Virus record (IMG/VR): IMGVR_UViG_3300020474_000153
Location: 1 to 21,164 of that record
DNA: 21,164 bases
Direction: 5' to 3' (one strand)
Origin: a virus
Position numbers and translations under genes: made by a program. Of the stretch, positions 10-16,490 are shown piece by piece. The notes below the pieces were generated by a model. The model saw only the letters and a program-made list of their open reading frames with translations, searched no databases and had not been told where the DNA came from. The first letter of the stretch is position 1. Each line of letters begins with the position of its first letter.

Positions 10-16
10 CTCCCTT
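10..16 (-). promoter_or_regulatory. Shine-Dalgarno site of a gene starting just off the left edge
   Basis: On the minus strand positions 16 to 10 read AAGGGAG, a strong ribosome binding site, followed by nine bases up to the window edge. No start codon is inside the window at the right distance, so the next minus-strand gene probably begins within a few bases beyond position 1. The stretch between this site and the stop codon at 71 holds no gene that I can see. Confidence 0.5.
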
Positions 17-70
17 TTGAACGAGTCTTACTCTGCTTCTTAGGCCACGTTAGTGTGGGGAGTCGACCTA

Positions 71-14721: not shown

Positions 14722-14946
14722 TCATATAGGTAGTTTTGCATGTTTTGGTAAGAAATGTAAATCTCTTGCATTTGCTTCAATCTTCTCTTTTAATCCTTTA
14801 CTAATTAAACGCCCAACTGTATCAGGCTCAACTTCATTTTTTTCACAATAATCCAATACAGCATCCATGTGAGAAATCTTTTTCTCTTTTGCAATAGACT
14901 CTATTTTCATAGAAAATGTCTTGGAATTTTGTTTAAATTTTATCAT
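14722..14946 (-). CDS. 33: Late transcription co-activator gp33-like
   Basis: A 74-residue protein with the core pattern of T4-like gp33: KISHMDAVLDYCEKNEVEPD, followed by VGRLISKGLKEKIEANARDL and a hydrophobic end HFLPKHAKLPI. In T4, gp33 binds host RNA polymerase and the sliding clamp gp45 through its C-terminal hydrophobic residues and enables transcription from TATAAATA late promoters, which occur in this window. It is shorter than the T4 protein (112 residues), as in marine relatives. Start and end overlap the neighbour as ATGA. The call rests on pattern memory. Confidence 0.6.
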   Translation of the reverse strand: MIKFKQNSKTFSMKIESIAKEKKISHMDAVLDYCEKNEVEPDTVGRLISKGLKEKIEANARDLHFLPKHAKLPI

Positions 14947-15290
14947 TCGTGTTCTCCACCATATGGGTCTTTTATTCGTTTACCATTGACCCAAATATAT
15001 CTGGCACGACTTGGGGTATGATACCCCTTTTTAATAAAAAAACTTGGTTTACGTTTTGCAGTTTCAAAAGTTGCAACTGTTATTGTGATTGCAGCCAAAA
15101 TGATAATATGTGCAATAGTAGTAACACCAAAAATCCACATACTAGTAAAGTATGAACTGAAAGCAATACACCACATCCATGCTAATACTTGCATAATCAT
15201 ATGGCGTGTATTTGTATCTGGAATATGTCTTAGTGGATTTCTTTCGTAGTTCATAACAACATTCCAAGTATCATATATAAATTTTCTCAT
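14943..15290 (-). CDS. Membrane protein, 115 residues
   Basis: The protein has two or three hydrophobic segments, at about 31-53 (IMQVLAWMWCIAFSSYFTSM) and 54-75 (IFGVTTIAHIIILAAITITV), with a basic C-terminal tail that includes RARYIWVNGKRIKDP. It should be an inner-membrane protein with both ends in the cytoplasm. It has GAGGTTGATATG at the start and overlaps gp33. It lies 14 bases after the T tract that ends the tmRNA coding piece, so it is expressed either by readthrough or from an unseen promoter. Function unknown. Confidence 0.65.
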   Translation of the reverse strand: MRKFIYDTWNVVMNYERNPLRHIPDTNTRHMIMQVLAWMWCIAFSSYFTSMWIFGVTTIAHIIILAAITITVATFETAKRKPSFFIKKGYHTPSRARYIWVNGKRIKDPYGGEHE

Positions 15291-15337: not shown

Positions 15338-15670
15338 AGGCATCCAGCGCGCCCTGCCATTGTGGAATAATACGGCCATTTACTTCGAGTCTACCTTACA
15401 CTTATTGGTAGTCCATTCCACGTCGCCGATACAGTACATCATAGCTACTGATGCACATTCAAATAGTATCGCCTGCGAATCCTCGTTTTACAGAGGAAAC
15501 AGTGGTAGGTTTCTGTTGCTAAGTACCTACCGAACTCCATGAGATTAAGCAGCTAGTGCGAAATCCTCGATTGCAAAATTATCGTTTGCATTTGTAGTCT
15601 TGACCAATTACGGAGTCAACCGACAATTCTCCTCTTGTCTATCTCTGTTAGTCGATCCTATTTCGCCCCC
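15311..15670 (-). ncRNA. ssrA: tmRNA coding piece (5' acceptor strand, tag frame, pseudoknots)
   Basis: The RNA begins GGGGGCG at 15670-15664, then AAATA and GGATCGAC, the conserved tmRNA D-arm element. Next comes a pseudoknot-like region: GACAA/TTGTC, with loop GGAG able to pair with CTCC. The tag frame at 15589-15545 encodes ANDNFAIEDFALAA and stops with TAA. After it are further structured units: GGTAGGT/ACCTACC with loop AACAG pairing to CTGTT, CGATAC/GTATCG enclosing TGCATCA/TGATGTA, GTGGAAT/ATTCCAC enclosing CTACC/GGTAG, and GGCAGG/CCTGCC. No T arm or CCA end follows, so it is not a one-piece tmRNA; the 3' acceptor strand lies upstream at 15941-15947. tmRNA, with SmpB, frees stalled ribosomes and tags the products for proteolysis. 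The exact 3' end is uncertain. Confidence 0.9.
15545..15589 (-). other. tmRNA proteolysis tag frame
   Basis: Fourteen codons, GCA AAC GAT AAT to GCT GCT, encode ANDNFAIEDFALAA and are followed by TAA. The start AND and the end ALAA agree with tmRNA tags; LAA is the signal read by ClpXP in E. coli. The ANDNFA start resembles alphaproteobacterial tags as I remember them. The resume codon GCA follows the sequence CTACAAAT. Confidence 0.9.
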
Positions 15671-15936
15671 ATCATAAACACACGACTATTCGCAAGTCTT
15701 TTGACCTGCACATTTTTTAGGATAACATTGCATTTGTATACGATAGTATTTGTTAGTATTATGTACTGTCCAAGTTTTTTCTTCATCAGCCATGTACTCA
15801 CATTGTTGCTGAGTCATGTCTTGATTTAAAACTGATTGGTTTCCAATATACTCCCATTCTGTTCCATTGTTTCCCCACATTGAAACTACTAATACAAAAA
15901 TTTTAGCATCCATAAAGGTTTCCTCACATGTGTTTA
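15671..15936 (-). other. Intervening segment of the permuted tmRNA, with extended stem
   Basis: This 266-base segment separates the CCA end of the acceptor piece from G1 of the coding piece. Its two ends continue the acceptor helix: 15940-15927 (ACCATAAACACATG) pairs with 15671-15684 at 13 of 14 positions, with one C-A mismatch at C74 and one G-U. With the seven acceptor pairs this gives 20 of 21. The loop between the strands carries a complete protein gene. Cutting before G1 (RNase P in related systems) and after CCA would release the segment. Confidence 0.75.
15686..15913 (-). CDS. 75-residue protein encoded inside the tmRNA intervening segment
   Basis: The frame starts at ATG 15913 with GAGGA seven bases upstream (15925-15921) and stops with TAG at 15688-15686. 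The product begins MDAKIFVLVVSMWGNNGTEW, continues EYIGNQSVLNQDMTQQQCEY and ends in a cysteine-rich part (MQCYPKKCAGQKTCE); four cysteines may form disulfides. The first 12 residues are hydrophobic, a possible short export signal or anchor. I recall similar small proteins, with WGN and GNQ motifs, from marine phages, but not their function. The frame is open further upstream into the acceptor piece (to 15964), but the ribosome binding site and the RNA structure favour 15913. The gene exactly fills the loop of the permuted tmRNA precursor. Confidence 0.75.
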   Translation of the reverse strand: MDAKIFVLVVSMWGNNGTEWEYIGNQSVLNQDMTQQQCEYMADEEKTWTVHNTNKYYRIQMQCYPKKCAGQKTCE

Positions 15937-16000
15937 TGGTGGAGGCGATGGGTACTGCCCCCATGTCCTACCCAGCATTTAACTCGTATCAACGAATTGT
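15937..16000 (-). ncRNA. ssrA: tmRNA acceptor piece (T arm and CCA end)
   Basis: The minus strand ends CGCCTCC-ACCA at 15947-15937. These seven bases pair with GGGGGCG at 15670-15664, with G3 facing U70, the wobble recognised by alanyl-tRNA synthetase. Just before is a T arm: ATGGG (15964-15960), loop GGCAGTA, CCCAT (15952-15948). The seven-base loop has the right size but not the usual TTC-x-A-x-x sequence. Upstream GGGTAGGAC resembles the GTAGGA segment that precedes the T arm in other tmRNAs, and AATTCGT/ACGAGTT (15998-15981) forms a seven-pair hairpin around TGAT. The 5' end is set by the late promoter at 16006-16013 and is approximate. Confidence 0.85.
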
Positions 16001-16005
16001 AGTTA

Positions 16006-16013
16006 TATTTATA
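16006..16013 (-). promoter_or_regulatory. T4-type late promoter for the tmRNA locus
   Basis: TATAAATA on the minus strand, identical to the T4 late box, lies just after the stop codon of the exported-protein gene and would start transcription near 16000, at the 5' end of the acceptor piece. It is in non-coding DNA, which makes chance less likely than for the copies inside genes. Confidence 0.65.
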
Positions 16014-16019
16014 ACATAT

Positions 16020-16490
16020 CTATAACCCTTTGTCAAGAGAAATCTCTATTTTTGCCGTACTTTCTTTTGGTGTATGCATTTTCATACCCCAACCAGACCC
16101 CAAAAGACAAGCATAGCCTGTTGAATGATGTAATTCAACTAAAGTAAATCCACTAGATTCTGGATTCATTGACCACATAATCTGTATGGGTAAAGTTGCA
16201 CCGTTTTGTGTTACCAAATATGCATCTCCACTGATAAAAGGTATTTCACCATTTTTATCTTTTAAAAGAGCAACCATATCTGGTATTGATCTACATGTCA
16301 TTGGTCGCATTATAACAAATTCGTTTGGTGGCGCTTCTTCTGGTATTATTAGTTTTTCATCCTCATCATTTGGTTCATAAAGAGGGCTTTCTGTTACATC
16401 ACAACATGGGGGTTCTTGATTCGGTTCAATAGCATATACTGTAGTAGTTAGAGCAATACCGATAAGAAAACTAAGCAGTAAGTTTTTCAC
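16020..16490 (-). CDS. Exported hypothetical protein with signal peptide
   Basis: The 156-residue product starts with a signal peptide, MKNLLLSFLIGIALTTTVYA, with a likely cut before IEPN. The mature part is acidic and proline-rich (PPCCDVTESPLYEPNDEDEK), then turns into a compact domain (PMTCRSIPDMVALLKDKNGE to GYACLLGSGWGMKM) containing further cysteines, so it probably folds in the periplasm with disulfides. The start codon is GTG at 16490 with AAAGGA upstream and overlaps the nuclease gene by 20 bases. I do not recognise the family. It is followed at once by the tmRNA late promoter. Confidence 0.7.
   Translation of the reverse strand: MKNLLLSFLIGIALTTTVYAIEPNQEPPCCDVTESPLYEPNDEDEKLIIPEEAPPNEFVIMRPMTCRSIPDMVALLKDKNGEIPFISGDAYLVTQNGATLPIQIMWSMNPESSGFTLVELHHSTGYACLLGSGWGMKMHTPKESTAKIEISLDKGL

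Follow-up and report, generated by a model that had tools for sequence, protein, structure and literature searches.

The stretch of DNA analysed here, a 21 kb virus record of 21,164 nt from an ocean phage (the window), carries a permuted tmRNA gene of the alphaproteobacterial type on the minus strand at 15501-16040 (540 nt). The Rfam model RF01849 matched both tmRNA halves over model positions 1-355 of 355 (102 bits, E 3e-27), and RF04321 matched with 94 bits over positions 1-213. The acceptor piece (15937-15998, minus strand, from the RF04321 alignment) comprises the T arm and the 3' strand of the acceptor stem (CGCCUCC) and includes an encoded ACCA at 15940-15937, so CCA is present in the gene. 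The coding piece (15501-15670, minus strand, RF01849) starts at G15670 with the 5' strand of the acceptor stem, GGGGGCG (15670-15664). All seven pairs of the acceptor stem are formed, among them the G3-U70 alanine identity pair, and the tag reading frame ANDNFAIEDFALAA-stop (15545-15589, minus strand; Rfam and direct reading) is intact and ends with ALAA. Between the two pieces lies an intervening segment (IVS) of 266 nt (15671-15936, minus strand), delimited by Rfam and by its identity to the segment of another viral contig, L001. This anatomy suggests that the transcript is processed to two tmRNA pieces and a discarded segment. A sequence-only reading of this DNA had already described the segment, with a Shine-Dalgarno (SD) sequence and a gene inside it, and its coordinates were all reproduced base for base.

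A promoter-like sequence of the tmRNA gene, TTGACA-17-TATAAATA (16006-16036, minus strand), is situated 65 nt before CCA. It combines a host-type -35 element with a -10 element that equals the T4-type late motif TATAAATA. The pattern TTGACN-15..18-TATAAATA preceded 93 of the 173 viral permuted tmRNAs, at a chance expectation of 0.0003 per sequence, and was present both with and without a gene in the IVS. A generic promoter scanner, for which the final base of the -10 element has to be T, did not list the window promoter at 16036-16006. ARAGORN did not call the tmRNA at 15501-16040, and phage annotation therefore probably undercounts tmRNA genes with long segments. In the 385 alphaproteobacterial genomes searched, tmRNA was found in 352; among the matches listed (best 150 by score) the precursors were about 300-440 nt long, as against 540 nt in the window.

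The IVS is occupied by a 75-codon gene, P0001 (MDAKIFVLVVSMWG...; 15686-15913, minus strand), for which the ORF, its homologues, pN/pS and a predicted model point to a small alpha/beta protein. Its ATG is at 15913 and its stop codon at 15688-15686, one base from the stem foot at 15684, while the SD sequence GAGG (15922-15925, minus strand, read directly from the sequence) starts two bases past the other stem foot at 15927. SD, start and stop are thus all within the loop and outside the stem. The ORF was longer than in 300 of 300 dinucleotide shuffles (p = 0.003; the window's own record is row L008 of the IVS shuffle test), 501 homologues were detected in viral contigs, and four relatives showed 50-99% identity with homology over the whole length. 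Compared with two free-standing relatives, window P0001 gave raw pN/pS values of 0.19-0.23; the selection signal comes from this comparison with free copies, as the copies within tmRNA differ by one ORF base. Shuffle test, homologues and pN/pS bear out the claim that a complete gene with its own SD fills the discarded loop. Two other contigs also carry the same gene between the tmRNA halves: L001 and L002 have P0001 at the same position with 99% protein identity, which places one cassette in three contigs. The proposal of the sequence-only reading that one transcript is both mRNA and tmRNA precursor is favoured by the tmRNA gene's own promoter-like sequence, from which the loop gene would be transcribed and then presumably translated.

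In other phages, P0001 relatives were located outside tmRNA genes, either about 100 nt or about 1.1 kb away from a tmRNA segment or at a great distance from one, and in L003 a relative lies outside the tmRNA, the segment of which holds another ORF. To judge from these homologues, the P0001 family (about 500 members) consists mostly of free-standing marine phage genes, and the window gene is best explained as a captured member of it. An AlphaFold2 model built from five sequences was of moderate quality (pLDDT 76) and showed a strand-strand-helix-strand arrangement. A Foldseek search of this model against PDB and viral models returned nothing at E < 0.1, comparison with PHROGs gave no family match, and tblastn with the P0001 protein as query gave zero matches in the phage record collection. 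Pfam matches to P0001 were sub-threshold alone and were judged to be chance.

For a broader view, permuted tmRNAs were collected by sequence motifs from viral contigs and cellular genomes, the viral loci being mostly metagenome contigs. The 163 distinct viral IVSs had a median length of 100 nt and reached 499 nt; the 108 distinct cellular ones had a median of 30 nt and a maximum of 116 nt. Of the viral IVSs of at least 80 nt, 52/100 contained an ORF beyond the 95% shuffle limit and 20/100 one beyond the 99% limit, compared with 0/1 cellular IVSs at the 95% limit; since IVS sequences are related, these counts are not independent trials. A held-out set, collected with a different motif, had an ORF beyond the shuffle limit in 18/45 IVSs. 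About ten unrelated families of small proteins, plus singletons, were encoded. An SD sequence was present at the start of 39 of 65 IVS ORFs against 4.5 expected, with weaker enrichment in the held-out set (6 seen, 1.9 expected). Eleven multi-member ORF sets gave raw proportions of pN/pS of 0.10-0.42 in frame and mostly at least 1 in the other frames; one of these sets (GDSD) overlaps with a second frame, and three could belong to a single superfamily (KYLSG). The multi-member families are, by this measure, under purifying selection. The cultured Methylophilales phage Melnitz (MZ577097, 45984-46436; PMC9004378) likewise has an IVS ORF, MFKWLSKTRLVVITRDYFRERNRKADAKIPKYLSG..., which belongs to the KYLSG family and is preceded by GGAG; its record lists no CDS within the tmRNA segment. 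In three contigs (L182, L025, L094) two consecutive or overlapping ORFs share a segment, e.g. a KYLSG-type peptide followed by a membrane protein.

Short ORFs on metagenome contigs could in principle be chance frames in AT-rich spacers or assembly artefacts. The shuffle, SD and pN/pS tests are all contrary to this, the window, L001 and L002 share one cassette, and a cultured phage has an SD-preceded IVS ORF. We rejected this explanation, which on the tests and the shared cassette is hardly credible.

The ends of the window segment extend the acceptor stem by 13 of 14 pairs, giving 20 of 21 in all. The 5' strand of the extension (UAAACACAUG; 15927-15936, minus strand) was supported by covariation and folding and the 3' strand (CGUGUGUUUAUGAU; 15671-15684, minus strand), which ends at the expected RNase P site, by covariation. 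An unconstrained minimum-energy fold of 346 nt reproduced the long stem (z = -3.9), and the pairing as counted agrees with the extended stem originally proposed. Compensatory changes, which the same reading had suggested looking for in relatives, were seen: among 62 distinct stems, taken from viral IVSs no shorter than 98 nt, the strands paired in register in 89% of the cells, compared with 36-61% when the strands were slid and 69% when partners were swapped (200 swaps, best 73.5%), and TA, AT, GC, CG and GT were exchanged at several positions.

Comparison of closely related loci revealed that segments are replaced as a whole. The window and L001 are identical at 264 of 266 IVS positions, while their tmRNA flanks are only 68% and 60% identical. 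Conversely, L001 and L003 have 98% identical tmRNA flanks and different genes. Presence/absence pairs were also found: L067 (204 nt, with gene) and L144, L194 and L199 (29 nt) have tmRNA flanks that are 99-100% identical, and the gene-less L167 (32 nt) and the gene-bearing L181 (120 nt) are identical at 293/300 and 399/400 flanking positions. L109 and L160 are likewise near-identical in their flanks (298/300 and 397/400). In these presence/absence and swap pairs similarity breaks off 0-3 nt from CCA and 4-7 nt from GGGG, and therefore the stem travels with the cargo. The alignments thus indicate that the IVS moves between phages as a unit, stem included.

The cargo genes are also found outside the slot. 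Seventeen contigs (17) have the MEIIWH gene within the segment, whereas others have it free; the Melnitz homologue is free, directly upstream of the tmRNA. Of 72 MDEV loci, 36 had the gene strictly inside the segment, a variant motif placed about ten more there, and others were free; the MVKG family likewise occurred in both states. The gene directly downstream of the window tmRNA (14943-15290) has a homologue with 58% identity inside the segment of L025.

Taken together, the IVS of permuted tmRNA genes in marine T4-like phages is very probably an exchangeable cargo slot, with the pre-tmRNA doubling as mRNA. The slot is apparent in the sequences from its anatomy, coding selection across families, cassette exchange and stem covariation; we infer that the precursor is translated, that RNase P processes it and by which route segments recombine. 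The precursor would be transcribed from the tmRNA's own promoter, starting just before the acceptor piece, so that the cargo is the first translatable gene on it and ribosomes could translate the loop gene. The base-paired stem would keep the ends of the acceptor stem together for end processing, and cuts by RNase P and 3' processing at CCA and before GGGG would release the segment and leave an ordinary two-piece tmRNA. As nothing between CCA and GGGG is retained, different genes can be accommodated in the slot. Whole segments probably swap by recombination in the conserved 10-20 nt tmRNA sequences on either side, although this route is a guess.

The window shares permuted halves, encoded CCA, G3-U70, a tag frame and a discarded segment with known permuted two-piece tmRNAs (RF01849, RF04321), but its segment is 266 nt long and protein-coding, whereas the sampled cellular segments have a median of 30 nt and a maximum of 116 nt. 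In the available part of a 2025 tmRNA survey (PMC11915505), the passengers of permuted segments are one tRNA-Ala and one repetitive element, and that part mentions no protein gene other than the homing endonuclease genes of group I introns; in our literature search of openly licensed papers, no account of a protein gene within the intervening segment of a tmRNA came up. The same part of the survey describes group I introns in tmRNA genes that carry homing endonuclease genes (PMC11915505), which likewise places a protein gene within a removed part of a tmRNA gene. The window segment, however, sits between CCA and GGGG and lacks ribozyme and splicing, there was no Rfam group I match in the window and no ribozyme at the T-psi-C loop, and no endonuclease was seen among the phage cargo families scanned.

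The closest parallel is the S23p-encoding intervening sequence in the 23S rRNA of Leptospira and Coxiella, also an excised, unligated, stem-closed segment with an ORF in the loop. It differs in the RNA concerned, as the window segment is located in tmRNA and not in 23S rRNA, and probably in the enzymes, RNase III removing the 23S rRNA segment (PMC4990558). Moreover, it carries the single S23p family, whereas the phage tmRNA slot holds many unrelated exchangeable cargos. The likeness raises the alternative that the phage segment is a selfish passenger, mobile like its 23S rRNA counterparts, inserted at a harmless site and with an ORF of little use to the phage. The precision of cassette exchange is in line with this, as is the anatomy shared with the Coxiella IVS, in which terminal inverted repeats form a stem and the loop contains an ORF (PMC4990558). 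However, the cargos are ordinary phage genes of many unrelated kinds, which also occur in the free state, and no nuclease, integrase or S23 domain was detected by Pfam in the ten proteins scanned; the S23 model gave no match (E up to 1) to P0001, eight other IVS cargos and one flanking gene. The frames are also under purifying selection and have good SDs, unlike Coxiella S23p, reported to be in decay and probably not made in vivo (PMC4990558). We thus regard a selfish passenger as very unlikely.

The cargo-slot reading leaves room for interplay between translation of the loop gene and tmRNA processing, which the sequence-only reading had raised. For the window gene a special tie to processing is not supported: by the refutation test that this reading itself had set, near-identical tmRNAs retain the stem whether they hold another gene or none. 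The P0001 family is mostly free-standing, and in the window SD and stop avoid the stem. The layout is different elsewhere. The SD overlaps the stem in 28 of 40 IVS ORF cases, and of 67 IVS ORFs 24 stop on the UGA of the UGAU leader (-4 to -2), 14 on a UAG at +13 in the mature tmRNA, 7 further in and 22 before the leader. Given these positions, ribosomes in many relatives have to unwind the stem or read across the processing site. Interplay in the relatives is plausible (28/40 SDs in the stem, 38/67 stops at -4 to -2 or +13).

A stronger version is that loop-gene translation and tmRNA maturation control each other: ribosomes would hold the stem open and delay RNase P, the formed stem would hide the SD, and with a stop in the mature tmRNA the RNase P cut would yield a nonstop mRNA tagged by the same tmRNA, an autoregulatory loop. 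The SD and stop positions in relatives fit this, as does the 35-aa MDEV peptide, which draws its last codons (MGAK-stop) from the 5' end of the tmRNA; yet the MDEV end varies where the tmRNA has GAAAC and not GAAAT, SD and stop avoid the stem in the window, cargo is unrelated from phage to phage, and gene-less alleles of near-identical tmRNAs retain the stem. The gene-less alleles rule out an obligatory coupling of gene and stem, and mutual control is in our view unlikely. Coupling is thus possible within the cargo slot, strongest where SD and stop are in the stem, but the gene-less stem-bearing alleles, the lack of relationship among cargos and the window gene's position clear of the stem argue against it as the reason for the gene's presence. 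A more speculative idea, which we consider quite improbable, is that loop genes are self-timed: each transcript would serve as a message up to the point at which the stem closes and RNase P cleaves it, and where the stop codon is in the mature tmRNA the cleavage would give a nonstop message tagged by the released tmRNA. If true, cargo output would be linked to ribosome-rescue capacity.

With the cargo slot, the discarded part of permuted tmRNA gains content, which would account for the long tmRNA genes of marine phages. It also points to nested phage genes as a class overlooked in annotation: the window tmRNA was not called by ARAGORN, and the Melnitz record has no entry in its segment. Cassette exchange bounded by processing sites in a stable RNA would be a new route of small-gene shuffling. 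As empty, filled and differently filled alleles of nearly the same tmRNA exist, interference between translation and RNA processing is directly testable. Melnitz, which shares with the window a phage-borne permuted tmRNA with an SD-preceded ORF in the segment and differs in the unannotated KYLSG-family ORF and the free MEIIWH homologue just upstream, is cultured and thus a good experimental system for the segment ORF.

The junction of MDEV cargo and tmRNA was seen in five contigs (L022, L081, L085, L086 and L103), where the mature tmRNA supplies the last codons and stop (..MGAK-stop) with its first 13 nt (GGGGGCGAAATAG). With GAAAC instead of GAAAT in the tmRNA this stop is absent and the frame continues (MGAKQDR...). 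The permuted tmRNA of L514 (2425-2794), which satisfies the betaproteobacterial model as well, has an MDEV frame that continues through the coding piece into the tag (ANDESYALAA).
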